From Xanthomonas sacchari (GTDB taxonomy: Bacteria; Pseudomonadota; Gammaproteobacteria; Xanthomonadales; Xanthomonadaceae): a stretch of DNA of 64,000 bases. This document shows positions 15,555 to 62,668 of this stretch, one piece after another (the first letter of the stretch is position 1; each line of letters begins with the position of its first letter). Below the pieces are notes generated by a model. The model worked only from the letters and a program-made list of their open reading frames with translations. It ran no database searches and was not told where the DNA came from. The DNA lies in NCBI RefSeq assembly GCF_024266585.1, contig NZ_CP100647.1:4321001-4385000 (forward strand), read 5' to 3'. A program made the position numbers and the translations under genes.

Positions 15555-16066
15555 GGGGCGGGGATTGGGGAGTCGGGAGTGGGGATTCGTAAAAGCCGGA
15601 AGCAGACATGGCGCGTTGCCGGTGTGGGAGCGGCTTCAGCCGCGACGCGCTACTGCGGACGGGTCGAGGCTGATCCCCACAGTGAGACAAGCTGCTCCTT
15701 CAACAAACCCTGTCTTCTTCGCTCGCAAAAACGCCTGACCCTGTTCTCCGGATCCACCATGACTTCATCCATTCGCGCCCCCTCTCGAACACCAGCCACG
15801 CCGATGACCGATGTGGCGATCCACTGCCATGCAGCGGAAACGCGCGAAGTGGTGTGCGTTTCGGTGGCGCAATGCGTCGGGACTGAAGTCCCTTCTACTG
15901 TGCACCCGACAGGCTCGCCGCAAGCCCCTGTGGGAGCGGCTTCAGCCGCGACGCGCTACCGCTGACAGGGCGCGACTGAAGCCGCTCCACGAACGCGCGC
16001 AATGCACCGCGCTCGCGAACCACACCCCATCCCGAATCCCCACTCCCCACTCCCGGCCACCCCACC
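15555..16066. repeat. Repeat-filled spacer between the TonB receptor and pnuC
   Basis: 512 bases without a gene. At 15555-15589 is a G-rich arm (GGGATTGG, GGGAGTCG type units) and at 16025-16057 the inverse C-rich arm, the latter ending ten bases before the pnuC start. Between them are two REP-like GGAGCGGCTTCAGCCGCGAC copies (15626-15645 and about 15932-15951; the second pairs with an inverse copy at 15971-15990) and a 74-base repeat at 15863-15936 that recurs at 17613-17684. Confidence 0.8.
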
Positions 16067-16639
16067 ATGTCCCCCCTCGAACTTCTCGCCGTGCTGGTCA
16101 ACGTATTGGGCGTGTGGCTGACCGCGCGGCGGGTGCGTTGGTGCTGGCCGGTCAACGTGGTCGCGGTGCTGCTATACGCGTGGCTGTTCTATCAGTGGAA
16201 GCTGTACTCGGACATGCTGCTGCAGGGCCTGTATGTGGTCCTGCAGGGCTATGGCTGGTGGCGCTGGAGCCAGGGGCTGGACGAGGACGGCAAGGTCCGG
16301 GTCGGGCCGTTGCCGTGGGCCGAAGGCGTGCGCTCGTTGCTGGCCGGCGCCGCCGGCGCGGCGCTGCTGGGCTGGCTGATGCACCGGCACACCGATGCGG
16401 CACTGCCGTGGCTGGATGCGGCGCTGTCGGCGTTCAGCGTGGTCGCCAGCGTCTGGGCGGCGCGCAAGCGTGTGGCCAGCTGGGGCCTGTGGATCGTGCT
16501 GGACTGCGTCTACGTCGGCGTGTTCGTGTACAAGGGCCTGTATCCCACCGCGGCGCTGTACGCCGGATTCGTGGTGCTGGCGGTGTACGGACTGCGCCTG
16601 TGGCAGGCCGATCTGCGCCGCGCGCGTGCCATCGCCTGA
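16067..16639 (+). CDS. pnuC: PnuC-family vitamin/nucleoside transporter
   Basis: A 190-residue inner-membrane protein of the PnuC/SWEET-like fold, with about seven helices. It carries the aromatic-rich helix QGYGWWRWSQG and a second symmetric segment WGLWIVLDCVYVGVFVYKG, the tandem motifs that line the substrate site of PnuC. The family moves nicotinamide riboside, or thiamine (PnuT) or riboflavin in subgroups, by facilitated diffusion, with trapping by a cytoplasmic kinase. A phosphotransferase-fold gene and a TonB receptor lie upstream on the same strand, consistent with such a module. The repeat element ends just before the start codon and no normal ribosome binding site is visible. Which vitamin is transported is not known. 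Confidence 0.85.
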   Translation: MSPLELLAVLVNVLGVWLTARRVRWCWPVNVVAVLLYAWLFYQWKLYSDMLLQGLYVVLQGYGWWRWSQGLDEDGKVRVGPLPWAEGVRSLLAGAAGAALLGWLMHRHTDAALPWLDAALSAFSVVASVWAARKRVASWGLWIVLDCVYVGVFVYKGLYPTAALYAGFVVLAVYGLRLWQADLRRARAIA

Positions 16640-16790
16640 GCGCGCTCGGTGCCGGCGAAGTGCGCAGCGGCACAGTGCGAGCCGTCGTCGGATGTGCGGA
16701 CAGCGCGCAGCAGACATCCACGCATCGTCCGCACTCGCCAGCCGGCGGCGTAGTCTTGTCGGCCACGCTTCGCCACGCCCTGGACTTCGC

Positions 16791-17522
16791 ATGAGCTTCG
16801 CCACCGCCGCCGGCTTCGCCCAACGCATCGCCGATGCGCTGCTGGCGCGCATCGCCGCCGGCGAGTGGCGGGCGGACCAGCGCCTGCCGGTGGAGCGCGA
16901 GCTGGCCGCGCTGTTCGGCTGCACCCGCATCACCTTGCGCGAGGCCCTGCAGCAGCTCGAATCGGACGGGCACATCTACCGCGAGAACCGCCGCGGCTGG
17001 TTCGTCAGCGCGCCGCGGGTGCGCCACGACCCCAACAGCATCGCCGGCTTCATGCAGTACGTGGCCGCGCAGGGCGGCGTCCCGCGCACCGAACTGCTCG
17101 CCGCGCAGCGCCAGCCGGCCGGCGCGGCGCTCGCCCGGCACCTGCACCTGGACGATCCTGCGACCGAGATGTTCGTGCTGCGCCGCCGGCGCTGGATCGG
17201 GCGGCGTGCGGTGCTGCTGGAAACCAACGCCATCCTCGCCGCGTGGGCGCCGCGCCTGCTCGAGCACGACCTGGCCGGCTCGCTGAGCGCGGTGCTGACC
17301 CAGCGCCTGGGCTTGCGGCAGGCGCGCAGCCGGCTGTCGATGTATCCGGCCACGCTCGACGCCGAGCAGGCCGCGCTGCTGCAATCCACCGCCGGCACGC
17401 CCTGCTTCCGCCTGCAGCGCGTCAGCTATGCCGCCGACGGCCGCGCGGTGGAGTTCGATATCGAATCCTGGCGCCACGACGTGCTGGAAGTCTCGGTGGA
17501 CGTGTACGCGCCGCCGAAATAA
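16791..17522 (+). CDS. GntR-family transcriptional regulator with UTRA domain (HutC/PhnF type)
   Basis: A 243-residue regulator. The N-terminal winged helix-turn-helix is clear: RIADALLARIAAGEW, LPVERELAALFGCTRIT, LREALQQLESDGHIYRENRRGWFV. The rest fits a UTRA ligand domain, with FVLRRRRWIGRRAVLLETN and a C-terminal AVEFDIESWRHDVLEVSVD segment. UTRA members bind small effectors, often sugars, amino acids or phosphonates, and usually repress nearby operons. It follows pnuC by about 150 bases on the same strand, so it may control the receptor/transporter group; no operator could be identified. Confidence 0.88.
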   Translation: MSFATAAGFAQRIADALLARIAAGEWRADQRLPVERELAALFGCTRITLREALQQLESDGHIYRENRRGWFVSAPRVRHDPNSIAGFMQYVAAQGGVPRTELLAAQRQPAGAALARHLHLDDPATEMFVLRRRRWIGRRAVLLETNAILAAWAPRLLEHDLAGSLSAVLTQRLGLRQARSRLSMYPATLDAEQAALLQSTAGTPCFRLQRVSYAADGRAVEFDIESWRHDVLEVSVDVYAPPK

Positions 17523-17612
17523 GCCGATCTGCGGCGATGTCAACCAGGCACGGGGGTTGTGGGAGTCAACTGTCATGCAGCCGCGACGCGCAAAGCGGTG
17601 CGTGCTTTCCGA

Positions 17613-17684
17613 TGGCGCAATGCGTCGGGACTGAAGTCGCTCCCACAGTGCATCCGGCGGGCTTGCCGCAAGCCGCTGTGGGAG
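17613..17684. repeat. Second copy of a 72-74 base dispersed repeat
   Basis: Starts TGGCGCAATGCGTCGGGACT and ends CTGTGGGAG. It matches 15863-15936 with a few differences and contains the motif GTCGGGACTGAAGTC. A shorter relative, GTCGGGACTGGAGTCCCTCC, is at 38591-38610. Confidence 0.75.
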
Positions 17685-17837
17685 TCAACTGTCATGCAAC
17701 CACGACGAACGGAGTAGGTGGACGATCGGACCTCGGAAGCCGTCGGGACTAGACCCCACAAAAGGGAACGAGATTCCCTCCCACATCGCGCCCGGACACC
17801 GATCACCGCCAGTCCCTGCGGGAGTCGCGGTCGCTTG

Positions 17838-17873
17838 GCTTTGGTTGTTGCTCTTGCTTTGGTTGTTGCTCTT
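17838..17873. repeat. Two perfect 18-bp tandem repeats
   Basis: The unit GCTTTGGTTGTTGCTCTT occurs at 17838-17855 and 17856-17873, followed by a partial third copy. It has unusually low GC for this window and lies just before the multi-hairpin element. Confidence 0.85.
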
Positions 17874-17920
17874 GCCTTGCTTTTGACTTACCGGGTTCCC
17901 TTCCGAAGCGGCGGCCAGCG

Positions 17921-18138
17921 CGGGGAAAAACCCGAAGGGCGGCGCACATGGATGTGCGCCGTCCGCGGCAGGGGCAGGATGCCCCTTCCGCGGATCCCCG
18001 CGCTGGACGCGGACCCGGAGCGCGCAGCGCGGAGGGCGCGAGGCAGGGCGCGCTTGACCAGCCTTCGGCTGTGGTAAAGCGCTTCTTTTGGTTACTTTTC
18101 TTTGCGCGAGCAAAGAAAAGTAACTCGCCGTAAGGCGA
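17921..18138. repeat. Multi-hairpin intergenic element (possible structured RNA or mobile repeat)
   Basis: At least six hairpins in a row: CGGG/CCCG at 17921-17934; GGCGCACA/TGTGCGCC at 17941-17960; GGGGCA/TGCCCC at 17971-17985 nested inside CCGCGG/CCGCGG at 17963-17993; CCGCG/CGCGG at 17998-18012; AGCC/GGCT at 18060-18070; a perfect 14-bp stem GTTACTTTTCTTTG/CAAAGAAAAGTAAC at 18091-18124; and TCGCC/GGCGA closed by GTAA at 18125-18138. It lies between the convergent GntR gene and the xps-linked glycosyltransferase gene. The long AT-rich stem could serve as a bidirectional terminator. From memory, similar blocks are dispersed in xanthomonads; I cannot confirm this here. Confidence 0.7.
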
Positions 18139-18203
18139 AAGCTTTGCTCTTGCACTTGTCGTCACCATGGCTGAATGTGGAAGCGACCTCGACACGAGAC
18201 GCA

Positions 18204-19037
18204 CTAGGCATCGAACAGCGCGCCTTGCGGATCCGGCGGCGGCGAGGTGTCGTACAAGCGCTGGAATTCCTCACGGCAGGCGCGCAAGGGATCGTGCATC
18301 AGGAACTCGGCCAGGCGCGCGTGCCAGGCCGGCCAGCGCGTGGCCAGCGCATCCATGTCGCCGTCGGCGGCGCGGCCTTCGCCACTGCAGGCCACATGCG
18401 CGGTCTCGCACAACACGTTGCGCCAGCCGAGCCCGGCCATGCGCAGCGACAGGTCGGTCAGCGCCGCATACCAGGACCCGTAGCTGCTGGCGTCCAGGCC
18501 GCCGGCGCGCTGCCGCGCCACGCCGCGCAGGACCACCGCGTGGCACACCGCCGACGGCAGTTCCGGATGCAGCGGCGGCAACGCCGCGCAGGTCCGCGCC
18601 AGGCGCTCGGGATCCTCGGGCAGCGGGTTGATCTCGCCCAGCCGCGGCCACGCACAGGCTTCGCCGGCATTGCTCCACGGCGTGGCGCTGGCGATGGCCG
18701 CATCGCGCGCCAGGCAGGCGCTCAACTGCTGCAGCCAGCCCGGCCCGGGCTGCGCATCGGCGGCCAGCACCGCCACGTCGGCATCGCCGCAGGCGCGCAG
18801 CATCTCGTCCATATGCGCCACCTCGCCGAGCATGCGCGGCCGCCGCGTGTAGTCGGCCTGCAGGCGCGTGCGCGCCAGCCAGGCCTCGATCACGCGGATG
18901 CCGCGCGGGCCGGCCTGCGCATCGTCGGCCAGCCACACGCGGGTACCGGCCGGCGTGTTCTCCTCCAGCGCACCGAGGCAGGCGTCCAGGGCGACGTCGT
19001 CGACGCCGACCGCCAGCAGCACGATGGGCAGGCTCAC
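18204..19037 (-). CDS. Glycosyltransferase-like (GT-A) protein downstream of xpsD
   Basis: A 277-residue product resembling family 2 glycosyltransferases: PIVLLAVGVDDVALDACLGAL at the start, a nucleotide-binding-like strand RVWLADDAQAG, and AVLAADAQPGPGWLQQL in the DxD position. The acceptor region is less typical. The start is GTG, four bases after the xpsD stop, so it is probably translated from the xps transcript. It is not a core secretion component; its role with the Xps system is unknown. The multi-hairpin element follows its stop and probably ends the transcript. Confidence 0.65.
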   Translation of the reverse strand: MSLPIVLLAVGVDDVALDACLGALEENTPAGTRVWLADDAQAGPRGIRVIEAWLARTRLQADYTRRPRMLGEVAHMDEMLRACGDADVAVLAADAQPGPGWLQQLSACLARDAAIASATPWSNAGEACAWPRLGEINPLPEDPERLARTCAALPPLHPELPSAVCHAVVLRGVARQRAGGLDASSYGSWYAALTDLSLRMAGLGWRNVLCETAHVACSGEGRAADGDMDALATRWPAWHARLAEFLMHDPLRACREEFQRLYDTSPPPDPQGALFDA

Positions 19038-19041
19038 CCGC

Positions 19042-21342
19042 TTACTTCTTGCCGCGTACCGGCAGCGGCTCCATGGCCTTGAACTTCTGCCCGTACTCGT
19101 CGGTGAGATTGCGCGCTTCCTGCGGGTTGCGCACGATCGTCGGGGTCAGCAGCACGATCACTTCGTTGCGGTTCTTCTGCTGGGTCTTCTGTCCGAACAA
19201 CGCGCCGACCACAGGCAACTTGCTCAGGTACGGCACGCCGCTGCTGCCGTCGGTGGTGCTGTCGTTGATCAGGCCGGCGAGCATGATGGTGTCGCCGCTC
19301 TGCACCGCCGCCTCGGTCTTGACCCGGCGGGTGTTGATATCGACGTTGCAGGCCGAGCTGTTGACGATGGTGCTGGAGGACGTACATGCCGTCGGCCGCG
19401 CGCCCGGCGTGCTGACCTCTTGCACGATGTCCAGGAACACCATGCCGTCCTTGGTGACCCGCGGGCGCACCTTGAGGATCACGCCGGTGTCGATGTACTG
19501 GACCGACGAGTAGCTGGTGTCGGTGCCGATACCCGTGTTGATCGAAGTGGAATTAATCGGAATCCGCGTGCCCACGTTGAGGGTGGCTTCGGCGTTGTTG
19601 CGCACGAACACCGACGGGGTCTGCAGCAGCTTGAGGTTGGTGACCTTGTCCAGGGCGGTGATGACCGCCGCAGCATTGGTGCCGAGGAAGGTCCAGCCGA
19701 GGCCGCTGCTGCCGGTGATCTTGCCGGCGATATCGCCCCAGATCTTGCGACCGGCCGCGCTGGGCAAGCCTGCGCCCGGGCCGAGGCCGGTGGAATTGGC
19801 CACGGTGGAATCGGCGGAGGCGTTGACCGAATTCTCGAAGAACCAGTTCACGCCGTACTGCAGATCGCCGGTCAGGCTGACCTCGGCCACCTGCGCCTCG
19901 ATGTGCACCTGCATCGGCATCACGTCGAGCTTCTCGACCACGTCGCGGATCGAGCGCCAGGCCTGCGGGGTCGAGCGCACCAGCAAGGTGTTGGTTTCCT
20001 CCACCGCCGAGACGCCGACCTTGTCGCCCTGCACTTCCAGGGTCACGCTGCCGTTGCCGGCGGTGCGCGGCGACAGCTGCAGGCTGCCGTTGCCCAGGCC
20101 GCCGCCGCTGCTGCCGGAAGAACTGCTCCCGCCCAGGCTGTCGCTACTGCCGCCCAGGCTGCCGCCCACGCCGCCGCCCAGGCTGCTGCTGTCGCTGCCG
20201 TTGAAGCCGCCCAGGCCGCCGCCGTTCAACTGGCTCATCTGCGAGCCCGGCATCAGCGAGGCGTTGGAATCGCCGCGGTTGCCGCCGCCGGCGCCGAACA
20301 CTTCGGCCAGGCGGTCGGCCAGGTCCTTGGCCTTGATGTACTTGAGCTCGTAGGAGAACAGCCGCGCGCCGCCGCCGGCGCTGTCGATGCGGTCCAGCCA
20401 CTCCTGGATCTGGTCCAGGTAGCGCGCCTGCGGGGTGATCACCAGCACCGCATTGGCGTTCTCCAGCGGCATGAAGCGGAACATGCCGGCGCTGGGGGTC
20501 TTGCTGTTCTCACCGAACACCTTCTCCAGGTCGGCCGCGACCTGCTCGGCCTTGCCGGACTGGATCGGGAACACGCCCACCGACATGCCCGACAACCAGT
20601 CGACGTCGAAGATCTGCACCGTGCGCAGGTAGTTCTCCAGTTCGGCGCGGGTGCCGCCCAGGGTGATGACGTTGCGCGAGCTGTCGATGCCGACGATGGC
20701 GTTGGGCCGCGCGTACGGCTCCAGCACCTTCTTCATTTCGCTGGCGGAGATGTACTTCAGCGGCACCACCCGCACCTCGAAGCCGCGCGCACTGGCCGGC
20801 GAGGCGGTGCTCGGCGCCACCGTGCCGGCCAGGGCCTGGTCGGCGGGGACGATGTTGTAGCGGCCGCCGCTGTAGACCATGCGCGCGTTGTTCCAGCCCA
20901 GCACCATCTCCAGCAGGTTCAGCGCCTGCGCCGGCGACACCGGCTTGGGCGTGGCCAGGGTCACCGTACCCTGCACGCCCGGCGCGATCACGTAGTTCTG
21001 CCCGAGCATGTCGCCGAGGATGGCCTTGACCACCGCCTGCAGCGATTCGCCCTCGAAGTTGAAGGTGGCGCTGCCGCTGCTGGCATTGCCCAGCGAGGGC
21101 GCCGGCGCGGCGGCGGCCGCGGAGTTGATCATGGTGCCGCTGCCGCGGCGGATCACCGGGGCGGTGCGCTCGGGCAAGGCATTGGGATCGGCCGGGCCGC
21201 CCTGGCCGTCGGTCTGGGTACTGCCGGCCGCGCCCACCTGGGGGTTGATCGCGGCGCCGCGACGGATGTCCGGCGAGGGCGTGGTGGCGCAGCCGGCCAC
21301 CAGGCCGATGGCGAGGAACAGGGAAAACAGACGCGGCGTCAT
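19042..21342 (-). CDS. xpsD: Type II secretion secretin XpsD (GspD)
   Basis: Outer-membrane secretin that forms the exit channel of the Xps system. The 766-residue product starts with a lipoprotein signal peptide (IGLVAGC, Cys18). N-domains follow: LQAVVKAILGDMLGQNYVI, VPLKYISASEMKKVLEPYA and LIVTPQ-type repeats; a Gly/Ser-rich linker (about residues 370-420) interrupts the N3 domain. The C-terminal secretin domain shows NSTSINTGIGTD, VILKVRPRVTKDG, GDTIMLAGLI and VPYLSKLPVVGALF. It is the last core gene of the cluster, eleven bases after xpsN, as in X. campestris. Confidence 0.96.
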   Translation of the reverse strand: MTPRLFSLFLAIGLVAGCATTPSPDIRRGAAINPQVGAAGSTQTDGQGGPADPNALPERTAPVIRRGSGTMINSAAAAAPAPSLGNASSGSATFNFEGESLQAVVKAILGDMLGQNYVIAPGVQGTVTLATPKPVSPAQALNLLEMVLGWNNARMVYSGGRYNIVPADQALAGTVAPSTASPASARGFEVRVVPLKYISASEMKKVLEPYARPNAIVGIDSSRNVITLGGTRAELENYLRTVQIFDVDWLSGMSVGVFPIQSGKAEQVAADLEKVFGENSKTPSAGMFRFMPLENANAVLVITPQARYLDQIQEWLDRIDSAGGGARLFSYELKYIKAKDLADRLAEVFGAGGGNRGDSNASLMPGSQMSQLNGGGLGGFNGSDSSSLGGGVGGSLGGSSDSLGGSSSSGSSGGGLGNGSLQLSPRTAGNGSVTLEVQGDKVGVSAVEETNTLLVRSTPQAWRSIRDVVEKLDVMPMQVHIEAQVAEVSLTGDLQYGVNWFFENSVNASADSTVANSTGLGPGAGLPSAAGRKIWGDIAGKITGSSGLGWTFLGTNAAAVITALDKVTNLKLLQTPSVFVRNNAEATLNVGTRIPINSTSINTGIGTDTSYSSVQYIDTGVILKVRPRVTKDGMVFLDIVQEVSTPGARPTACTSSSTIVNSSACNVDINTRRVKTEAAVQSGDTIMLAGLINDSTTDGSSGVPYLSKLPVVGALFGQKTQQKNRNEVIVLLTPTIVRNPQEARNLTDEYGQKFKAMEPLPVRGKK

Positions 21343-21353
21343 GCGATCACTCT

Positions 21354-26466: not shown

Positions 26467-26475
26467 GGCGCCGGA

Positions 26476-27285: not shown

Positions 27286-28500
27286 TCACCCAATCGCATT
27301 GGTAAGGTCGTAGAGGGGGACGAGGACGGAGATGATCACCAGGCCGACCACCGAGGCCAGGACCAGGGTGATCGCCGGCACCATCGCCGCCAGCAGGCGG
27401 TCGATGGCCTGCGCGGTCTCCTGCTCGAAGGTGTCGGCGGTCTTCAGCAGCATGATGTCCAGCGCGCCCGATTCCTCGCCGACCTGGATCATCTGCAGGG
27501 CCAGGCGCGGGAAGCGCTTGCCCTTGGACAGCGAGGCCGACAGCCCGTGGCCGTTCTTGACGTCGTCGGCGGCGGCGCCGACGTCGGCGGTCAGCGCCAG
27601 GTTCGACAGCACGTTGCGGGAGATGCCCAGCGCCGCCAGCAGCGGCACGCCGTTGCGCAGCAGGGTGCCGAGGGTGCGGGTCAGGCGCGCGGTCTCCAGC
27701 CGCGAAATCAGCACGCCGACGAAGCGCTGGCGCAGCAGCCAGGCGTCGAAGCTGGCGCGGAACGCGGGGTCGCGGCGCTTGCGGTCCACCGCCAGGATGA
27801 TCACCCCGGGCACCACCAGCAGCACGATCCACCAGTCGCGCACGAACAGGCCCACGCTCAGCACCGCCTGGGTGAACCACGGCAGGGCCACGTCCAGGCT
27901 CTCGTACATCTGCGCGAACTGCGGCACCACGTAGCCGAGCAGGAACAGCAGCGCGCAGCCGACCACGCTGACCAGGATCGCCGGATAGATCAGTGCGTTG
28001 ATCACCCGCCCGCGCAGTTCGCGGCTGCGTTCCAGGTATTCGGCCAGGCGCTGCAGGGTGTCGTGCAGGCTGCCGCCGGCCTCGCCGGCGCGCACCATGT
28101 TGATGTACAGGCGCGAGAACAGCCCGTGCTGGCGCTCCAGCGCGGTGGACAGCGGCGCGCCGCCGCGCACCGCGTCGCGGATGTCGCCGACGGTGCGCTT
28201 GGAGCGTTCGTCCTCGGGCAGCTCGAGCAGGATCGACAGCGCGCGGTCCAGCGGCTGGCCGGCGCCGAGCAGGGTCGCCAATTGCTGGGTGAACTGCACC
28301 AGCGCCGCGCCGTCGAACGGCTTGGGTCGGAACAGCCCACGCAACGAGGTGCCACCGCCCTCGGCGGCGAGCCGGGCCTGCATCGGCATGTGCCCCTGCT
28401 CCTGCAGGCGCAGCGCCACCTCCGCCTCGCTGGCGGCTTCCATCTGCCCTTCCAGGATCTCGCCGTGCGAGTCCAGGGCCTTGTAGCGGTACAGGGGCAT
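27286..28500 (-). CDS. xpsF: Type II secretion inner-membrane platform protein XpsF (GspF)
   Basis: A 404-residue polytopic protein with the tandem GspF domains: FTQQLATLLGAGQPLDRALS and TRTLGTLLRNGVPLLAALGI start the two repeats, each followed by membrane helices (LVSVVGCALLFLLGYVVP; ITLVLASVVGLVIISVLVPL). It is the assembly platform driven by XpsE. The start MPLYRYKALDSHGE is the normal family start. Directly upstream is a C-rich repeat arm in place of a ribosome binding site, so how initiation occurs is unclear; it may be coupled to read-through from xpsE. Confidence 0.95.
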   Translation of the reverse strand: MPLYRYKALDSHGEILEGQMEAASEAEVALRLQEQGHMPMQARLAAEGGGTSLRGLFRPKPFDGAALVQFTQQLATLLGAGQPLDRALSILLELPEDERSKRTVGDIRDAVRGGAPLSTALERQHGLFSRLYINMVRAGEAGGSLHDTLQRLAEYLERSRELRGRVINALIYPAILVSVVGCALLFLLGYVVPQFAQMYESLDVALPWFTQAVLSVGLFVRDWWIVLLVVPGVIILAVDRKRRDPAFRASFDAWLLRQRFVGVLISRLETARLTRTLGTLLRNGVPLLAALGISRNVLSNLALTADVGAAADDVKNGHGLSASLSKGKRFPRLALQMIQVGEESGALDIMLLKTADTFEQETAQAIDRLLAAMVPAITLVLASVVGLVIISVLVPLYDLTNAIG

Positions 28501-28542
28501 CAGGGCTGGGAATGGGGAATGGGGAATCGGGAGTGGGAAAGC
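28501..28542. repeat. G/C-rich octamer repeat abutting the xpsF start
   Basis: On the plus strand the units GGGAATGG, GGGAATGG, GGGAATCG and GGGAGTGG run in a row. On the coding strand the C-rich version ends CCCAGCCCTG followed immediately by the xpsF ATG, the same junction as at holC. I see no matching inverse arm in the 90 bases up to xpsE, so this is a single arm. Confidence 0.85.
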
Positions 28543-28633
28543 GCGTCGTGCACGTTCGCTGCGTACCCGGGCGCCGGCCGCGAGCGCATGGCGAAGCACC
28601 ACGCTGCCATCGCCGGAGCGCATGCCGCGCGCA

Positions 28634-38797: not shown

Positions 38798-42868
<4,071 letters not shown>

Positions 42869-43180
42869 GTCCGGGGAACCGTGTGAGGAAACGGGCTGGC
42901 TATTGTAGCGGAGAGCTGGGAATGGGGATTCGGGAATGGGGAATCGGCACAGCCGGCCGCCGAGCGGGGTCGGCGCACGCGGACGCTAGCGGTGGTTGGG
43001 CGCCAACGGACGCGGCGCTCCAGCGGCAAAACGCGGGGTGGCACCACCGGTGGCGCGAAGGTCGCACCGCCGGCCAAGGGGGAGAGACGCGCGTTCAGCG
43101 CTCGTGCCCGCGGGAACGAGCGACGTCGCGCCCATTCCCGATTCCCGTTTCCCCATTCCCGGCCGCTCAGCGCACGGCCC
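42869..43180. repeat. purL-dsbC spacer with an octamer repeat pair
   Basis: 312 bases. The G-rich arm is at 42917-42946 and the inverse C-rich arm at 43131-43161, enclosing about 185 bases of GC-rich DNA without a gene. The purL promoter must lie on the purL side; no clear boxes were seen. Confidence 0.75.
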
Positions 43181-45066: not shown

Positions 45067-45119
45067 GGGATTCGGGATTCGGGATTCGGGATTCGGGATT
45101 CGGGATTCGGGATTCGGGA
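45067..45119. repeat. Tandem octamer repeat (GGGATTCG, about 6.5 units) upstream of xerD
   Basis: A perfect head-to-tail run of GGGATTCG, starting seven bases before the xerD start codon on the coding side. It is the purest copy of the octamer family and might vary in length by slippage. Confidence 0.92.
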
Positions 45120-48423: not shown

Positions 48424-49905
<1,482 letters not shown>

Positions 49906-49908
49906 GAA

Positions 49909-50015
49909 ACGGGAATCGGGAATCGTGAAAAGCGCCTTGTCTGACCCAACCGGAGGCGGCGCGCGCGCCGCACGCTGTTCCCATTCCCCATTCCCCATTC
50001 CCCACTCCCAGCCCT
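49909..50015. repeat. Octamer repeat pair between pepA and holC
   Basis: G-rich arm 49909-49925 (CGGGAATCGGGAATCG) and C-rich arm 49979-50012, with about 50 bases between. It runs to CCCAGCCCTG directly in front of the holC ATG and leaves no room for a normal ribosome binding site. Confidence 0.85.
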
Positions 50016-50016
50016 G

Positions 50017-50445: not shown

Positions 50446-50552
50446 GGAGAATCGGGAATGGAGAATCGGGAATCGTTTCTCCAAGCGCCGCATTGAGGCG
50501 GGTCCCGCTCTGCGCTCCATCGATTCCCCATTCCCGATTCCCGATTCCCAGC
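50446..50552. repeat. Octamer repeat pair between holC and valS
   Basis: G-rich arm 50446-50475 (GAGAATCGGGAATGGAGAAT units) and C-rich arm 50521-50550, about 45 bases between. The C-rich arm ends TTCCCAGCCA right at the valS ATG. Confidence 0.85.
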
Positions 50553-50554
50553 CA

Positions 50555-53401
<2,847 letters not shown>

Positions 53402-53502: not shown

Positions 53503-53574
53503 CGCGGGCACATGACATCACGGCCGTCCCCAGGTGCCGCCGCCCTGCCTGGTAGGCGACGACACCTGTCAGGC

Positions 53575-54720
53575 TCAGAGCTTGCCCGCGCCGGCCTTGG
53601 CCTTGACGTCCGCGGCCACCTTGTTCGCCGGCAGCAGCGAATAGGTGTACGGCGGAGTCCAACCGACGCTGTTGTTCCACGAACAGGTCAGCGCCTGGCC
53701 GTTGAGCAGCGAGCCGAAATCGCGGTAGACGCTGCCGCCGTAGTTCGCCGCGATCTTGTCGCAGCCGCTCACCCCGCCGATGTCGAAGACGTTGTTCTCG
53801 GAGAAGATCTTCGACTCCTTGCCGACGCCGTGGGCGTAGGAGAACGGATACACCGCGTTGCCGGTGCTGCCCACGTGGTAGTTGTTGTACAGGTGCACCT
53901 GGCCGAAGCGCACCCGCGGCGCGCGCGCGGCGATGTTCTCGAACAGGGTGTTGTGGATGGTCACCTTGAGCTTGCCGCTGTCGGTGCTGGAAGCGCTGTC
54001 GCTGGAGCCGATCAGGTTGTTCTTCTCGTGCGACTTGAACACCGAGTACGACACGGTCACGTAGTTGGCGCCCTTCTTGATGTCCAGCGCGCCGTCGTGG
54101 TGCTGCTTGGGCCGGCCGTTGGCGGTGCCGTTCTGGTCGTCGGTGCGGCGGCCGTCGGTGAAGGTGACGTGGTCCACCCACACGTTGCTGGCGCCCTCGA
54201 TGGTCATGCCGTCGTATTCGGCATTCCAGTTGCCGGCGCTGCCGTCGTCCGGATCCCACACCGGCTGCGGATCCCACGGGTTCTCGATGGTCAGGTTACG
54301 CACGATCACGTCGTTGGCCTTGACGTAGAAGTAGCCCTCGCGGATCTCGGCGTTGCTGCCGACGCCGATCAGCGTGGTCTTGGTCGGGATGTCCAGGCGC
54401 GCGCGGCTCTTCATGTCCGCGGTGGTGCTGTAGGGCGTGCCTTCGCTGATGTCGATGATGCCGTTGACCTTGATGATGCGGCCGTTGCTGCCGGCGCTGG
54501 CCTTCAGCGCGGCCTTCAGCTGCGCGGCGGTGCTGACGCTGTAGACGTCGGCCGCGGCGGCCTTGGAACCGCCCTTGGTGCCGCCGTTCTGCGTGGCCCA
54601 GCCGGTACTGGCGACCTCCAGGCTGGCGTCGGCATGGGCGGCCCCGGCGATGCCGGCCAGGCACAGGGCCAGGCCGAATGTGCGCAGCGGCGATGGAGCG
54701 ATGAAGGACTGGGTGATCAT
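53575..54720 (-). CDS. Secreted pectate lyase (polysaccharide lyase family 1)
   Basis: Extracellular enzyme that splits de-esterified pectin in plant cell walls by beta-elimination, with calcium. The 381-residue product has a Sec signal peptide cleaved about after AHA30 and a parallel beta-helix with PL1 marks: [11 protein letters not shown]-like strand ([18 protein letters not shown]), [32 protein letters not shown] and [18 protein letters not shown], which holds the catalytic Arg. The TF and GAGG before MITQ support the start. Such lyases are standard cargo of the Xps system; that is inferred, not seen. It stands alone. Confidence 0.95.
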
Positions 54721-55822: not shown

Positions 55823-56286
55823 CGCGGCGCCCGCTTGCGCAACGCGCGCAACTGCGGCCACAGCGCGCGCTTGGCCGCGGCGTTGCCGCGCAGCTCGTCC
55901 AGCGGCCAGGTCGCCATCAGCGCCTGCGTGGCCGGATCGTTGGGATTGAGGCTGGAGGCGCGCAGCAGGGCGATCTGCAGGCGGTCGGGCAGGCGCAGCC
56001 CGACCCGACGCGCGCCCGCCACGGGTGCGACTCGCGGCGCATCCGGCTGCACCGCCGGCGCCGGTGGCGGCGGCGCCCGGCGCCGCTCCGGCACCTCGGC
56101 AGGAGACGCCGTCCGCGGCGGCATCGGCGCCTGCCGCTGCGCCGGTACCGCCGGCTCCACCTCCGGCGGCGGCGTCGGTTCGACCACGGCCGCGGCATCC
56201 ACGTAGACGGTATGGCCGAGCGCCTGCAGCCAGCCGACCTGCTCGGCCGACCACAACGGCGCGTGCATGGACGCGTGCTCGCTCAT
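55819..56286 (-). CDS. holD: Probable DNA polymerase III psi subunit with a proline-rich linker
   Basis: A 155-residue protein that standard annotation would leave hypothetical. The N-terminus (AEQVGWLQALGHTVYVD, residues 14-30) resembles the chi-binding start of E. coli HolD (as I recall it, WQLQQLGI...), a Pro/Ala-rich linker spans about 34-92, and the C-terminal part LPDRLQIALLRAS...LDELRGNAAAKRALWPQL (99-146) matches the end of HolD (LRANPTARAALWQQ from memory). It is directly upstream of rimI, as holD is in E. coli. The linker is longer than usual. I infer psi; not proven. Confidence 0.65.
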   Translation of the reverse strand: MSEHASMHAPLWSAEQVGWLQALGHTVYVDAAAVVEPTPPPEVEPAVPAQRQAPMPPRTASPAEVPERRRAPPPPAPAVQPDAPRVAPVAGARRVGLRLPDRLQIALLRASSLNPNDPATQALMATWPLDELRGNAAAKRALWPQLRALRKRAPR

Positions 56287-57059: not shown

Positions 57060-57136
57060 CCCCTCAGTCTAATCGACTTGCCAGGCGCGTCGGCGGGTGC
57101 TGCAATCGGCGCTCCCGCCGCGCCCTGGAGACCGCG

Positions 57137-57529
57137 ATGCGCGCCCTGCCCCGGTTTTGCTGCCTGCCCCTGCTCGCCGTCAGCGGCATGCTCGGCGCCA
57201 CCACCCTGTACCAGTGGAAGGACGCGCAGGGCGTCACCCACTATGCCGAGACCCCGCCCCCCGGCGGCAAGTACCAGGTCCGCAAGGTCGACACCCGCGG
57301 CGACGCCCCGGCCGAGACGCCCGCGGCGGCCCCGGCCGAGAACGGCCAGTGCCAGACCGCGCGCAAGAACCTGGACATCCTCGGCAAGCCCGGCAAGATC
57401 GCCACCGACAACGATGGCGACGGCAAGCCGGACGGGGAACTGGACGCATCCCAGCGCGATGCGCAGAAGGCCCTGGCCGAAGCCGCGATCAAGGCCTACT
57501 GCAGCCCGGCGGCCGCGCCCGCCAAGTAA
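57137..57529 (+). CDS. Exported DUF4124-domain protein
   Basis: A 130-residue protein with a signal peptide (to about SGMLGA) and an N-terminal DUF4124 domain: TTLYQWKDAQGVTHYAETPP is the typical first strand set with the Y-x-W-x-D-x-x-G-x-x-x-Y pattern. An Ala/Pro linker leads to a C-terminal helical part with two Cys (CQTARKNLDIL, AYCSP) that may be disulfide linked. Function unknown. GGAG six bases before the ATG supports the start. Confidence 0.82.
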   Translation: MRALPRFCCLPLLAVSGMLGATTLYQWKDAQGVTHYAETPPPGGKYQVRKVDTRGDAPAETPAAAPAENGQCQTARKNLDILGKPGKIATDNDGDGKPDGELDASQRDAQKALAEAAIKAYCSPAAAPAK

Positions 57530-57618
57530 CCCGAACACGTCAGGCCAGCCGCGGGCGATGCCCGCAGCGCCGGCAATGACTGGCAAAATGGGCGACCCGC
57601 CGTCTGCGAAGCCCCTCG

Positions 57619-59313
57619 ATGCGCCTTTCCCAGTTCCACCTGCACACCACCAAGGAAACCCCGGCCGACGCCGAACTGATCAGCCACAAGCTGATGCTGC
57701 GCGCGGGCATGATCCGCAAGCTCGCCTCCGGCCTGTACACCTGGTCGCCGCTGGGCCTGCGCGTGCTGCGCAAGGTGGAAACGGTGGTGCGCGAGGAAAT
57801 GAACCGCGCCGGCGCCCTGGAAGTGCTGTTCCCGACCATCCAGCCGCGCGAGCTGTGGGACGCCACCGGGCGCTGGAGCAAGTTCGGCGGCCTGATGCTG
57901 CGCATGCAGGACCGCAAGGAGCAGGACTACTGCTACAGCCCGACCGCCGAGGAGGCCGCCGCCGATTTCGCACGGCAGGAGCTGAACAGCTACAAGCAGC
58001 TGCCGGTCAACTTCTACCAGATCCAGACCAAGTTCCGCGACGAGATCCGCCCGCGTTTCGGGGTGATGCGCGCGCGCGAGTTCCTGATGAAGGACGCCTA
58101 CTCGTTCCATCTCAGCGATGAGGACCTGGCGCGCGAGTACGAGAACATGAAGGCGGCCTACACCCGCATCTTCACCCGCCTGGGACTGCAGTTCCGCGCG
58201 GTGCAGGCCGATTCCGGCGACATCGGCGGCGACGCCTCGCAGGAATTCCACGTGCTGGCCGCCTCCGGCGAGGATTCGCTGGCGTTCTCCACCGGCTCGG
58301 ACTACGCGGCCAACGTCGAGGCGGCGATCGCCGCGGCGCCGGCGCCGCGCGCGGCGGCCAGCGAGGACCTGCGCAAGGTCGCCACGCCCACCCAGAAGAC
58401 CTGCGAGGCGGTGGCCGAACTGCTCGGCCTCCCGCTGCAGCGCACGGTCAAGTCGGTGGCGGTGATGGCCGGCGAAACCTTCGTGCTGGCGCTGGTGCGC
58501 GGCGACCACACGGTCAACGAGATCAAGCTGGGCAAGGTCGCCGGCCTGGCCGGCTACCGCATGGCCAACGAGGCCGAGATCCTCGCGCACCTGGGCAGCG
58601 AACCGGGCTTCCTCGGCCCGCTGGGTCCGCGCCAGCCGATCCGCGTGGTCGCCGACCGCGACGTCGCGGCGCTGGCCGACTTCGTGGTCGGCGCCAACGA
58701 ACCCGGCTTCCACCTGGCCGGGGTCAACTGGGGCCGCGACCTACCGGAGCCGGACGCCGTCGCCGACCTGCGCAACGTGGTCGAGGGCGAGCGCGCGCCC
58801 GATGGCGGCGAGATCCGCCTGGCCCGCGGCATCGAGGTCGGCCATGTGTTCCAGCTCGGCCGCCAGTACGCACAGGCGCTGGACGCCACGGTGGTGGACG
58901 AGAACGGCAAGACCGTGACGCTGGCGATGGGCTGCTACGGCATCGGCATCTCCCGCATCGTCGCCGCGGCGATCGAACAGAACCACGACGACGCCGGCAT
59001 CCGCTGGCCGCAGCCGATGGCGCCGTGGACGGTGGCGGTGTGCGTGATCAATCCCAAGCGCGATCCGGCGGTCGATGCCGCCGGCGAGGCGTTGCTGGCG
59101 GAACTGCAGCAGGCCGGGCTGGATGCGGTGCTGGACGACCGCGGACTGCGCGCCGGCGCGATGTTCGCCGACATCGAACTGATCGGCATTCCGCACCGCG
59201 TGGTGGTGTCCGAACGCGGCCTGGCCGCCGGCACCTTCGAATATCGCGCGCGCAGCGGCGGCGATGCCGAGCACCTGGATCGCAGCGCGCTGCTGGCGCG
59301 ACTGCAGGGCTGA
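57619..59313 (+). CDS. proS: Prolyl-tRNA synthetase (bacterial type)
   Basis: Charges tRNA-Pro. The 564-residue class II enzyme begins [20 protein letters not shown], has motif 1 and 2 regions ([44 protein letters not shown]), the INS editing domain (about 225-400; [17 protein letters not shown]) and motif 3 ([19 protein letters not shown]), then the anticodon-binding domain. A strong intrinsic terminator follows the stop. Confidence 0.97.
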
Positions 59314-59320
59314 AGAATGG

Positions 59321-59346
59321 GGCCGGGAGTATATCCCGGCCTTTTT
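59321..59346 (+). terminator. Intrinsic terminator of proS
   Basis: Stem GGCCGGGA/TCCCGGCC with loop GTATA, then TTTTT at 59342-59346, eight bases after the proS stop. Confidence 0.92.
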
Positions 59347-59476
59347 ACGCTATCGTCACGCCCATAAGCGAAATCTTCGCGCTACTGCCGCAATTGAATA
59401 CAGCGGGTATACAACGGCAGACGAATACTGCAGCGGCATTCCACTTGCAAATGCCTGCCGCGAATAAGCCTGATAT

Positions 59477-59505
59477 TTGTCAATCCGATAAAGCATCATT
59501 ATGCT
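59477..59505 (+). promoter_or_regulatory. Sigma-70 promoter of the H-NS-like gene
   Basis: TTGTCA (59477-59482), 17 bases, TATGCT (59500-59505), in an AT-rich stretch unusual for this window. The start codon is 54 bases beyond the -10. AT-rich and curved-looking DNA here would allow self-regulation, common for H-NS genes. Confidence 0.6.
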
Positions 59506-59558
59506 TTCGCGGTTGCCAGGGAATGGCGAACGGACACCACCCATTTTCCGGAGCAAAG

Positions 59559-60020
59559 ATGACCATCGATCTCAGCGGCCTGTCCGCCAAGCAATTGGGC
59601 GCCCTCATCAAGACCGCCAAGAAGCAGCAGTCCATCGTCGCCAAGCGCACTCCCATCGCCAAGGTCCGCACCCAGCTGGCGCGCCTGGCCAAGAGCCACG
59701 GCTACAGCATCGAGGAAGTCTTCGGCGGCGCGCCCGCCGCACGCGGCCGCAAGGCTGGCAAGCCGGGTCCGAAGCCGGGCCGCAAACTGGGCAAGGTGCC
59801 GCCGAAGTACCGCAATCCCGCCAATGCCGCCGACACCTGGACCGGCCGCGGCAAGCAGCCGCGCTGGCTGGCCGATCTGGTCGCCAAGGGCAAGAAGGTC
59901 GAGGATTTCCTGATCGCCGGCGCCGCCGCCAAATCCGCCGCACCGGCCAAGAAAACCGCCAAGAAGGCCGCCAAGCGCATTGCCAAGAAGGCCAGCAAGA
60001 CCCCCGCGCCGAAGGCCTGA
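59559..60020 (+). CDS. H-NS-family nucleoid protein with a lysine-rich tail
   Basis: A 153-residue nucleoid protein. Residues 1-50 form the helical oligomerisation part, and 83-104 hold the H-NS DNA-binding motif (KYRNPANAADTWTGRGKQPRWL spanned there; key residues Y84, R85, T93-W94-T95-G96-R97-G98). It differs from enterobacterial H-NS in having a Lys/Gly/Pro-rich linker and a 30-residue Ala/Lys tail like that of histone H1. Related Xanthomonas proteins (XrvA type) affect virulence genes. GGAG lies five bases before the start. Possible targets include AT-rich promoters such as the one upstream of the adhesin gene; inference only. Confidence 0.9.
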   Translation: MTIDLSGLSAKQLGALIKTAKKQQSIVAKRTPIAKVRTQLARLAKSHGYSIEEVFGGAPAARGRKAGKPGPKPGRKLGKVPPKYRNPANAADTWTGRGKQPRWLADLVAKGKKVEDFLIAGAAAKSAAPAKKTAKKAAKRIAKKASKTPAPKA

Positions 60021-60044
60021 TTCGCCGCGACAGCCGTCACGAAG

Positions 60045-60068
60045 AACGCCGGCCATGCCGGCGTTTTT
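60045..60068 (+). terminator. Intrinsic terminator of the H-NS-like gene
   Basis: Stem AACGCCGGC/GCCGGCGTT with loop CAT, ending in a run of T (60064-60068). It may also serve the convergent exporter gene. Confidence 0.9.
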
Positions 60069-60079
60069 CGTTTCAGTCT

Positions 60080-61339
60080 TCAAAGATTCTTGCGCGCCGG
60101 CACCAACAGATTGCCGAACAGCAGGCCGGCGACCAGCGCCATCACGATATTGGTCACCGTCAGCAACGCCGATTGCCCGCCGAGTACGTCCTGCTGCTGC
60201 ACCAGGGTCAACAACCCGCGCAGGCTGGCGCTGCCGGGCACCAGCATGATGATGCCCGGCAGCCGCACCAGCGCGCCCGGCCGCTGCACGATGCGCCCGA
60301 ACAGATTGCCGGCGGCGGTCAACACCATCGCCGACAGGAAGATGCCGACCGGGCTGCCCCAGGCGTCGCCGGCGAAGCGCGCGATCACATAGCCGGCCGC
60401 CGAGGCCGCCATCACGAACGGGTAATCGCGGCCGCTGGCCTTGAACAGCAGCGCGAACGCGTAGGCGGCGACCAGCAGCGAGGCCCATTCCACCCAACCG
60501 TGCTGCGGCCGCGATGCCCGCACCATCGGCTCCAGGCCGAGCAGCTGCGCCAGGGTCACCGCGATCACCGCGCCGACGGTCAGCTTGACGACGGTGGTGA
60601 CCGCGCCGGCGAAGCGCGCCGTGCCCGACACCCAGTGCTGGCTGGTCAGTTCGTTGACCGCATTGGTCAGCGCCATGCCGGGCAGCAGCACCACCAGCGA
60701 GGCGATGATCACCGTGTTGAGATTGAGCGGCGCCACGAAGCTGGCCACCAGGGTCGCGACGAAACCGGCCAGCAGCGCCGCCAGCGCGTCGTTGGCTTCC
60801 TTGGTCGCCGGACGCTTGTCGGTGAGCTGGGTCAGCACGCCGATCAGCAGGCCGATCACGGTGGCGGTGGCGATGTCCAGCCACGGCAGGCGCCACAGCC
60901 CGGCCACGCCGGCCGCGGCCAGGCCGAACCCCAGCACCTGCATCGCCATCCAGCGCCGTCCCGGCGGCTGATCCAGCTGGCGCAGCGCGGTGTGGCCCTG
61001 GGCCACGCTCATGCGCCCGCTGGCCACGTCGTCGGCGATGCGGTCGGCGACGCTGAGCTTGTGCAGGTCGTTGTCGCCGGGCGCCAGCCGCACCACGCGG
61101 GTGATGTCGCTGGAGCCGATCGCCTTGGTCGGGTCGCTGAAGCTGAGGATCAGCCCGGTCGGGTTGGACCAGGGCTCGCAATCCAGGTCCAGTTGCTGCG
61201 ACAGCGCCACCACCGCCGCCTCCAGCCGCTGCGCGGTGGTGCCGTAGGTGTGCAGTCGCCCGGCGATGTCGGAGACAAAGGCGATGCGCTGCGCGTAGGT
61301 CGCATTGGCGGAGGGACTGACGGTGGGAGCGGCGGGCAT
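60080..61339 (-). CDS. Threonine/serine exporter family protein (ThrE-like)
   Basis: A 419-residue inner-membrane protein. It joins an N-terminal DUF1212-type half (IAFVSDIAGRLHTYGTTAQRLE, with the hydrophobic segments after 140) and a C-terminal DUF3815-type half (YPFVMAASAAGYVIARFAGDAW; LPGIIMLVPGSASLRGL), the fused layout of ThrE exporters, about ten helices. The substrate in Xanthomonas is unknown. The start MPAAPTVSPSANAT at 61339 is preferred over a far upstream codon. It is divergent from mlaE with about 100 bases between them. Confidence 0.85.
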   Translation of the reverse strand: MPAAPTVSPSANATYAQRIAFVSDIAGRLHTYGTTAQRLEAAVVALSQQLDLDCEPWSNPTGLILSFSDPTKAIGSSDITRVVRLAPGDNDLHKLSVADRIADDVASGRMSVAQGHTALRQLDQPPGRRWMAMQVLGFGLAAAGVAGLWRLPWLDIATATVIGLLIGVLTQLTDKRPATKEANDALAALLAGFVATLVASFVAPLNLNTVIIASLVVLLPGMALTNAVNELTSQHWVSGTARFAGAVTTVVKLTVGAVIAVTLAQLLGLEPMVRASRPQHGWVEWASLLVAAYAFALLFKASGRDYPFVMAASAAGYVIARFAGDAWGSPVGIFLSAMVLTAAGNLFGRIVQRPGALVRLPGIIMLVPGSASLRGLLTLVQQQDVLGGQSALLTVTNIVMALVAGLLFGNLLVPARKNL

Positions 61340-61439
61340 GTCGGCTAGTATGGCGCCAACGCCGCGCCCGGCCACCCTGTCGCGATCACCACATCTGCAA
61401 CACGGGCGAAACAGGTATGCTCGCGCACCGGACGCCCCC

Positions 61440-62552
61440 ATGATCGAACCGCAACCGCCCAAACTCAGCCAGGACGACCGAGACCCCTCGCGGGTGCGGC
61501 TGACCGGCAGTTGGACCCTGGCCACCGCCCTGGCCTCCTCGGAAGTGCTGCGCGGCATGCCGGCCGGCACCACCGGCATCGACGCCAGCGGCATCGGCCA
61601 GCTGGATTCGGCCGGGGTGCTGCAGCTGATGCGCTACGCCACCCGCAACGGCATCGCCCACGAGGCGGTGGATTTTCGCCAGGACCATCGCGCGCTGGTC
61701 TCGACCATCGAGGACGTGGCCGACGACCGCCCTAAGCGCAAGCGCGACTACGGTTTCGCCGCGGCGCTGGAACGCCTGGGCTATGCGGTGCACCGCAACG
61801 GCAAGGAAATCGTCGCCCTGGTCGGTTTCCTCGGCGAGACCCTGGTCAAGCTGCTGCGGCTGCTGCACGCGCCGCGCCGGTTCCGCCTGACCGCCACCGT
61901 GCACCACATGGAGCAGGTCGGCCTGGACGCGGTGCCGCTGGTGGCGCTGCTGTCGTATCTGGTCGGCGCGGTGATCGCCTTCCTCGGCTCCACCATCCTG
62001 CGCGACTTCGGCGCCGAGATCTACGTGGTGGAACTGGTCAGCATCGCCTTCCTGCGAGAGTTCGCGGTGCTGCTGACCGCGATCGTGCTGGCCGGGCGCA
62101 CCGCCAGCGCCTTCACCGCGCAGATCGGCGCGATGAAGGCGCGCGAAGAGGTCGACGCGATCCAGACCCTGGGCCTGGACCCGATGGACCTGCTGGTGAT
62201 CCCGCGGCTGGTGGCGCTGCTGCTGATGCTGCCGCTGCTGACCTTCGTGGCGATGATCGCCGGCCTGGCCGGCGGCGTCACCGTCGGCGCCTTCGACCTG
62301 GGCATCCCGCCGCAGATGTACCTGGCGCGCATGCACGACACCATCCAGATCCGGCACATGCTGGTCGGCCTGTCCAAGGCACCGATCTTCGCCATCGTGA
62401 TCGGCCTGATCGGCTGCCTGGAAGGGCTGCGGGTGGAAGGCACCGCGCAGTCGGTGGGCGAGCGCACCACCTCCAGCGTGGTGCAGACGATCTCGCTGGT
62501 GATCATCATCGACGCGATCGCCGCGCTGTGGTTCATGAACATGGGGTGGTGA
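61440..62552 (+). CDS. mlaE: MlaE permease with an N-terminal STAS (MlaB-like) domain
   Basis: Permease of the Mla phospholipid ABC transporter that keeps outer-membrane asymmetry. The 370-residue product starts with a STAS-like domain (about 20-100; GIDASGIGQLDSAGVLQLM), so the MlaB function appears fused to MlaE. The MlaE permease domain follows: GLDAVPLVALLSYLVGAVIA, REFAVLLTAIVLAGRTASAF, QIGAMKAREEVDAIQTLGLD and EGTAQSVGERTTSSVVQT. It heads mlaE-mlaF-mlaD. The gap to mlaF holds a repeat pair. Confidence 0.93.
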   Translation: MIEPQPPKLSQDDRDPSRVRLTGSWTLATALASSEVLRGMPAGTTGIDASGIGQLDSAGVLQLMRYATRNGIAHEAVDFRQDHRALVSTIEDVADDRPKRKRDYGFAAALERLGYAVHRNGKEIVALVGFLGETLVKLLRLLHAPRRFRLTATVHHMEQVGLDAVPLVALLSYLVGAVIAFLGSTILRDFGAEIYVVELVSIAFLREFAVLLTAIVLAGRTASAFTAQIGAMKAREEVDAIQTLGLDPMDLLVIPRLVALLLMLPLLTFVAMIAGLAGGVTVGAFDLGIPPQMYLARMHDTIQIRHMLVGLSKAPIFAIVIGLIGCLEGLRVEGTAQSVGERTTSSVVQTISLVIIIDAIAALWFMNMGW

Positions 62553-62559
62553 GTTGAAG

Positions 62560-62668
62560 CCGGGAATCGAAAATCGAGAATCGGGAATGGGGAACGCCGG
62601 CTGCGTCAGCGACGTCGGCCGGGAGTGCACGCCTTGACCATTCCCGATTCCCCACTCCCGATTCCCGA
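62560..62668. repeat. Octamer repeat pair covering the mlaE-mlaF junction
   Basis: G-rich arm 62560-62595 and C-rich arm 62638-62668. The C-rich arm is translated as the first residues of MlaF (TIPDSPLPIPD). Confidence 0.85.

Follow-up and report, generated by a model that had tools for sequence, protein, structure and literature searches.

What places a short inverted repeat exactly against the ends of coding sequences, again and again along one chromosome, and what keeps it there? The question is raised by a stretch of 64,000 nucleotides from Xanthomonas sacchari (contig NZ_CP100647.1, positions 4,321,001 to 4,385,000 of the forward strand; hereafter the window), which has a G+C content of 71% and belongs to a genome that is a single contig of 4.889 Mb. 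A preliminary description of the window reported an octamer-based inverted repeat at ten places, often set against start codons, and proposed either a mobile or self-copying element that targets translation starts or an RNA feature used in initiation. The account favoured here, which we give an even chance of being right, is that the repeat forms part of a dispersed, non-autonomous palindromic element in which two arms of about 42 nucleotides face inward around a non-conserved spacer, and that this element is old and probably kept as an RNA stem.

At its core the finding has already been published. The main text of Rehm et al. (2015; PMC4692102) describes a GGGAATC / GGGNATC repeat with 186 copies in X. 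campestris (Xcc) and 183 in X. axonopodis pv. citri (Xac), mostly of four units, together with 70 convergent inverted pairs in Xcc and 75 in Xac. According to that text, most copies lie within 50 bp of open reading frames (ORFs), the G-rich strand being antisense where a copy precedes a start and sense where it follows a stop; copies are rare between divergent ORFs, and 83% are in place between Xcc and Xac. The same text counts xpsF among the marked genes, reports quadruplex folding in vitro, and states that the function is unknown, while remarking that repeats able to form a quadruplex coincide with the beginning or end of an assembled transcript more often than short control repeats do. The arrays of the window, GGGANTN heptamers in tandem with at least two units and mostly four, are the same repeat in the same genus, and the four-unit preference, the convergent pairs, the proximity to ORF ends and the rarity between divergent ORFs all recur in the window genome.

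Arrays are present at all ten places of the preliminary description, but their unit is the 7-bp heptamer GGGAWTS and not an octamer: the period is 7, and the octamers first read overlap by one base. These tandem heptamers are accompanied by GGGAGTS variants. The sequence pattern itself is indeed unlikely by chance, with 51 copies of GGGAWTSG in the window where 100 shuffles give 6.4 ± 2.4 (largest shuffle count 13), and with a strict 22-base triple unit occurring 151 + 177 times genome-wide (328 in total) against 0 for a reversed control. Arrays were collected from 1.264 Mb of the window genome (the window and 60 further stretches), with gene ends taken from a custom small gene finder (a codon model with no model of Shine-Dalgarno (SD) sites) and not from annotation. 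This sample holds 133 arrays; 8 at stretch edges were excluded from context counts, and the 125 that were assigned comprise 107 intergenic arrays and 18 within predicted genes.

Exactly four units are found in 90 of the 133 arrays, and conservation extends beyond the heptamers. When sequences are aligned on the array, positions -3 to -1 of the upstream flank are G (0.87), C (0.75) and C (0.55), preceded by purines, while downstream of the last unit a G (0.94) and a free position are followed predominantly by A, A, A/C, A/G, G and C. With these ends included, each array forms the core of an arm of about 42 nucleotides, RRRGCY-(heptad)x4-GNAAMRGC. The four-unit cores are distinct in 80 of 90 cases and still keep the count of four, and the second G is conserved at 93-100% in each of the four units (81 of the 90 four-unit arms typed).

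The arms also have a fixed polarity. The claim that the G-rich arm is always on the left where both arms are present holds at every two-arm place of the window, and across the 1.264-Mb sample neighbouring arrays (within 400 nt) are convergent in 40 of 47 cases, with 6 tandem and 1 divergent. In 102 of the 107 intergenic arrays it is the 5' end of the G-rich strand that lies nearer the ORF (median 10 versus 131 nt). Strict array detection at first miscalled some paired arms as single, and a profile scan of 37 of the 39 arms called single gave 14 of them an opposite arm at z > 4, two of these matches being weak. Applied to 559 gaps of 60-1200 nt, the profile scan recovers two arms in 35 gaps, one arm in 29 and none in 495, and all 35 two-arm gaps have their arms directed inward, over spans of 79-494 nt. 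By gap type, arrays number 76 in 105 kb of codirectional, 25 in 43 kb of convergent and 6 in 38 kb of divergent gap DNA. Repeats resembling repetitive extragenic palindromes (REPs) are found in two-arm gaps 10 times between the arms and 0 times outside them; as REP-like matches also occur in 47 of the 495 arm-free gaps, they are not restricted to arm-bearing gaps.

At which end of the ORF, then, does the element lie? The preliminary description held that it forms a fixed junction with start codons, and the part of this that survives is a fixed junction with ORF ends in general. Among the 107 intergenic arrays, 63 face a stop codon with their 5' end, at a median of 6 nt, and 44 face a start, at a median of 20 nt (Mann-Whitney p = 1.9e-6). 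An array begins exactly 6 nt past the stop in 18 of the 63 stop-facing cases, compared with 9 of 3105 GGGs in array-free gaps, and this 6-nt register equals the length of the RRRGCY end. In two-arm gaps an arm lies within 20 nt of the ORF at 35 of 39 sides that face a stop and at 20 of 31 that face a start; in one-arm gaps the same holds for 16 of 18 arms facing a stop and for 2 of 11 facing a start. Both ends are this close in 21 of the 35 two-arm gaps, at least one end is in 34, and convergent two-arm gaps, which contain no start, are flush on both sides in 5 of 5 cases. The pooled median outer distance is still 10 in 12 gaps of at least 250 nt, with a median span of 360 nt, while 6 of those 12 have one or both ends more than 20 nt from the ORF; summed outer distance rises with gap length at a Spearman coefficient of 0.42, and span at 0.88. 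These counts indicate that the ORF junction is real but belongs first of all to stop codons, which are abutted more often and more tightly than starts, and the idea of an element that targets translation starts does not hold. The element does not itself supply the stop codon: TGA, TAG and TAA stand at 38:11:2 among 51 stops within 20 nt of an arm, close to the 709:140:111 of all 960 predicted genes.

Contact with a start codon nevertheless has a correlate, in that all 15 genes with an arm 13 nt or less from the ATG lack an SD-like motif, which is present at 328 of 913 genes that have no arm there and at 8 of 27 whose arm lies further upstream. Genes whose ATG is touched by an arm would have to start without an SD motif or by coupling. 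Because the composition of the C-rich arm excludes an SD motif, and because the holC and valS starts of Stenotrophomonas have no obvious one either (by eye), the pattern shows tolerance and not a new initiation signal.

The two arms of a pair agree in subtype. The middle base, which distinguishes AAT from ATT units, matches between arms in 36 of 38 callable pairs (from 40; shuffle mean 25.4, with 1 of 10000 shuffles as high). Two arms are callable at 26 of 76 loci with a readable gap at the orthologous holC-valS junction, and at 17 of 73 at pepA-holC; subtypes agree in 26 of 26 (9 AAT, 17 ATT) and in 17 of 17 (7 AAT, 10 ATT), respectively, these loci being related and not independent. The pepA-holC set additionally includes one mixed/T locus and four with only one arm callable. 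In a comparison with a relative, G006, whose flanks are about 86-98% identical (mostly 94-98%), of 11 sites with both arms callable, 4 have switched between AAT/AAT and ATT/ATT, 7 are unchanged, and 0 have switched in one arm. In another genome, G134, the 5 readable sites among the 11 are all ATT/ATT, and site 41029 is mixed, with ATT on the left and AAT on the right. All 20 sites compared with G006 have an orthologous segment and looked occupied in both genomes; occupancy is stable while content switches. Switching in both arms suggests exchange of the whole element, or of its arms, with other copies or strains. The left holC-valS arm recurs, with its derived GAGAATC unit, at other sites, and a search for a donor of the swapped holC-valS element gave no obvious candidate, the best long genome matches being 74-76% over about 107 nt, mainly via the arms. 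Beside a C-rich array of G006, at a site (L245:13151-14122) that matches L162:13766, lies a transposase gene of the IS110 family (Pfam DEDD_Tnp_IS110), of which the corresponding site in the window genome is free.

Across the family the range is wider than the main text of Rehm et al. (PMC4692102) states, where the repeat is said to occur in Xanthomonas and not in other gammaproteobacteria. Of 198 genomes of the family, 84 contain one or more strict matches to GGGAWTS arrays, as do 36 of its 54 genera (reversed control at most 2), and about 65 genomes (counted by eye) have ten or more strict matches. A variant, GTGATTS, forms arrays in 35 of the 198 genomes and 19 of the 54 genera (reversed control 0), including arms at the same junctions with similar flanks (L199, L217). 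In 400 kb of G138 (genus g15) there are 25 arrays, of which 16 consist of exactly four units, the flanks are the same, and 8 of 9 neighbouring arrays are convergent; 400 kb of G123 contain GTGATTS arms with similar flanks, 3 of 4 neighbouring pairs being convergent. Heptad arrays of other units (GGGACCC, GGGACTC, GGGTTNC and GGTTGTT-like) are seen in single lineages (L055, L036, L035, L109). The two-arm loci at holC-valS and pepA-holC are all Xanthomonas by name except L107 ([Pseudomonas] boreopolis), and the albilineans clade (L034, L035) has no arms there. Several other genera have related pairs at one or both junctions (by eye), and Stenotrophomonas loci have mostly other palindromes or short gaps, with a few G-rich arms of their own.

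The element also occurs in frame inside genes. When PurL of the window is aligned with that of 26 of 80 loci, the Xanthomonas proteins show in-frame inserts that read as arms at two loops, except in the albilineans clade and in L104, whose model is truncated; L061 retains only one arm at the second loop, and some species have other units. The loops are short in 5 of the 6 Stenotrophomonas sequences aligned, and the sixth (L050) has another insert. The valS loop that holds a single arm in the window carries GGGACTC- or GGGACCC-type units in some relatives, and other inserts also occur there. Clean empty sites were sought in valS and not obtained, the loop being replaced rather than simply filled; insertions there differ by species (L056, L062, L094, L107, L109), as at an insertion hot spot. 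Openness of the unit in all six frames is no special property, since 78% of random 7-mers of matching composition are also free of stops.

How might such an element have arisen and persisted? It would have spread long ago as mobile DNA, possibly through a transposase, and would survive where neither a coding sequence nor a promoter is broken. A transcribed pair would fold into a long imperfect stem beside stop codons and be retained for that reason, with the stem perhaps acting on RNA 3' ends in the way of REPs and bacterial interspersed mosaic elements (BIMEs), whose stems are RNA 3'-end protectors or processing sites; contact with start codons would be a by-product of filling a short gap. 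Folding of pairs up to 260 nt (35 of the 40 pairs, 40 dinucleotide shuffles each) gives a median z of -5.2, with 34 of 35 below -2, and the position after stops, the rarity in divergent gaps and the transcript remark of Rehm et al. are together consistent with a stem serving to protect or process the ends of RNA. That the repeat is mobile or self-copying, as first proposed, remains plausible given its dispersed copies and those in frame in purL, although neither a target-site duplication nor a mobilising enzyme was found.

Several observations weigh against this account. The comparison of 20 sites with G006 revealed no new insertion, no recent site that was cleanly empty and no target-site duplication. 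Genes for a Y1 transposase (Y1_Tnp, PF01797) are present in 18 of 20 array-rich genomes, the exceptions being G020 and G095, and in 12 of 20 that are free of arrays; a Y1 transposase does not appear to explain the distribution of arrays. Only one arm was seen in 29 of the 64 arm-bearing gaps, in 14 of the 35 two-arm gaps an end lies further than 20 nt from the ORF, at up to 169 nt, and no common core emerged from 37 spacers compared at E <= 1e-3, where matches link 6 (two containing REP-like palindromes) and the others share nothing. If exact pairing were conserved, the seventh positions of the two arms should agree, and they do so in 32 of 68 cases (17 four-plus-four pairs of the 40) where chance gives 29.3; register shifts, tried in 28 pairs, did not improve this. 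The pepA-holC pair alone folds little better than its shuffles (z of -1.45; holC-valS -3.08), and in-gene copies cannot act as 3'-end stems. In G138 divergent gaps are no poorer in arrays (4 in 13 kb versus 12 in 35 kb of codirectional gap), and in G123 just 4 of 17 arrays hold exactly four units, and the two arms differ in unit type in 1 of 3 convergent pairs. Given the in-gene copies, the lack of register pairing and G138, the role as an RNA-end stem is one that we infer.

Within the window, a G-rich arm, GGGGCG followed by four heptads and GTAAAAGC, lies directly after the stop of a TonB-dependent receptor gene (13374-15554), at 15555..15596 on the plus strand. Its C-rich partner (16027..16066, minus strand), with four heptads at 16027-16054 and the outer flank at 16055-16066, lies directly before the pnuC ATG (16067); 12 bases separate CCC from this ATG, and not ten as first given. 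The interval between these arms holds GGAG-type REP-like palindromes (GTGGGAGCGGCTTCAGCCGCGAC) at 15620-15990. The other start junctions were read correctly, with CCCAGCCCTG-ATG at xpsF and holC and CCCAGCCA-ATG at valS. At xpsF (27286-28500, minus strand) a single arm (28501..28543, plus strand), C-rich on the gene strand, is flush with the ATG, and a partner was not found at the far side of the gap. Two inverted pairs lie in frame inside purL, at 40343..40441 (arms 40343-40370 and 40414-40441) and at 41029..41113 (arms 41029-41056 and 41086-41113, the right one degenerate), and a third pair occupies the gap between purL and a DsbC-like gene (42918..43160; arms 42918-42945 and 43133-43160). 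Upstream of a tyrosine-recombinase gene is a single long pure array of GGGATTC, of 7 units and more (45067..45118, plus strand), which has 7 units in the window, a mixed set of about 15 in G006 and other units in G134, and looks like a variable-number locus.

The PepA protein of the window shares 99% identity with its counterpart in Xanthomonas sp. NCPPB 1128. The pepA-holC gap has a G-rich arm (49897..49933, plus strand) whose units 1 and 2 are spanned by the pepA stop TGA (49903-49905), and a C-rich arm (49982..50016, minus strand) that ends at the holC ATG (50017). In the holC-valS pair the G-rich arm (50447..50482, plus strand) is degenerate, units 1 and 3 being GAGAATC, and the C-rich arm (50522..50554, minus strand) ends at the valS ATG (50555). 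A single arm inside valS (52518..52553, plus strand) consists of GGGAGTC x4 and GCAACGGC, and the last pair (62562..62666; arms 62562-62589 and 62639-62666) separates an MlaE-like permease gene from an ABC ATPase gene, its right arm falling within the predicted N-terminus. Elsewhere in the window, ARAGORN places an unusually long, possibly spurious tRNA-Gly of 94 bases on the minus strand (56012-56105), overlapping a predicted gene; a pectate-lyase-like gene (53575-54720) has a BLAST relative in only 15 of 80 loci, some of the loci being too short to show one. Over the whole window, Rfam gave 0 matches at the gathering score.

What other explanations could account for these features? The one that fares best, unlikely but still a serious possibility, follows the framing of Rehm et al. 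(2015), in which a simple-sequence repeat arises by replication slippage and is kept because its four G-runs fold into a G-quadruplex. Four units are both the minimum for such a fold and the strong mode (90 of 133), the second G is conserved throughout, a few long pure arrays such as that at 45067 look slipped, and (GGGAATC)3GGG folds by circular dichroism (PMC4692102). Slippage does not, however, predict the conserved non-repeat flanks on both sides, the retention of four units among 80 distinct cores of 90, or a subtype shared by both arms. The GTGATTS arrays moreover carry the position-2 G-to-T change of the non-folding control of Rehm et al.; two-tetrad forms from GG runs, with units ending in G, may still arise, and three-tetrad quadruplexes should not form. 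GGG runs are therefore not constrained wherever the arm architecture occurs, and a quadruplex is not a strict requirement for the arms.

Three further explanations are each distinctly improbable. In the first of them, the stem would hold the stop of one gene beside the next start, so that terminating ribosomes re-initiate. Such translational coupling would suit the 16 of 29 codirectional two-arm gaps in which both ends lie within 20 nt of stop and start, and the missing SD-like motifs at the 15 touching genes, but it is opposed by convergent gaps that have no start and are bracketed as tightly, by start sides looser than stop sides, by the compositional exclusion of SD motifs and the Stenotrophomonas starts discussed above, and by the in-gene copies. 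Of similarly low probability is a binding array for a putative protein that reads four heptads per arm, with the subtype as a recognition code that would make the arms match. The preferred unit count, the fixed spacing, the concordance of the middle base and not the seventh, and lineage-specific units at the same place would all follow from this; against it, two subtypes coexist within one genome, no candidate protein was found, and the long spans (up to 494 nt) and in-gene copies would demand a flexible partner. It is equally doubtful that the arms are family-wide intergenic brackets behind stops, whose heptads are rewritten in both arms at once by dedicated machinery (AAT to ATT, perhaps GGG to GTG) while unit count, register, flanks and position would stay largely fixed and spacers could take any length.

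A mobile element or RNA feature directed specifically at translation starts is very improbable, because the exact junctions at holC, xpsF and valS are outweighed by the greater number and tightness of stop-facing arrays and by a 6-nt register present at stops and absent at starts. A passive low-complexity or compositional artefact of a G+C-rich genome is already refuted by the shuffle (51 versus 6.4) and reversed-pattern (328 versus 0) counts, the conserved flanks and the geometry. The preliminary description would have taken the absence of a start preference as the mark of such a repeat; flanks, four-unit preference and geometry argue against dismissing it on that ground.

The preferred palindromic element with paired arms resembles several known systems in part. 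REP/BIME sequences with their REP-associated tyrosine transposases (Nunvar et al. 2010; PMC2817692) are likewise described as high-copy intergenic palindromes, in inverted pairs, that are probably non-autonomous mobile DNA; the arms here lack both the GT(A/G)G head and a short palindrome within a single arm, and REP-like repeats lie between them as separate entities. Rickettsia palindromic elements (PMC10969869) are described in frame inside house-keeping genes, as here in purL, but differ in sequence and host, and the copies here are mostly intergenic (107 of 125, with 18 in genes). Miniature inverted-repeat transposable elements, as treated in the same source (PMC10969869), share short length, terminal inverted arms (convergent in 35 of 35 two-arm gaps) and the lack of a gene inside, and differ in that the interior is not conserved here; neither a target duplication nor a parent transposon was seen. 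Papers that by title concern Xanthomonas typing schemes based on variable-number tandem repeats (PMC8002079, PMC6459536) contain the strings GGGAATC and GGGATTC.

In the main text of Rehm et al. (PMC4692102) we found no mention of conserved flanks, a 42-nt arm, the 6-nt stop register, stop-side anchoring of two-arm gaps, subtype switching in two arms, GTG-unit variants or in-frame purL pairs. Among the matches listed, no title pointed to later work on this heptamer repeat or to a paired-arm element, and no in-frame palindromic element was found in Xanthomonas in a literature mostly without subscription papers, all of which is weak evidence of absence. The arm anatomy, stop-side anchoring, subtype switching and GTG-unit relatives thus appear to be additions to the published description. 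Where the 2015 view was of a quadruplex-forming simple-sequence repeat, the repeat now becomes the core of an element with two arms and conserved ends, which many genera of the family share and some forms of which lack GGG runs. The question moves accordingly from the role of a quadruplex to the role of a paired arm behind the stop codon and to what keeps the arms matched, and pepA-holC, holC-valS and purL are named sites at which it can be tested.

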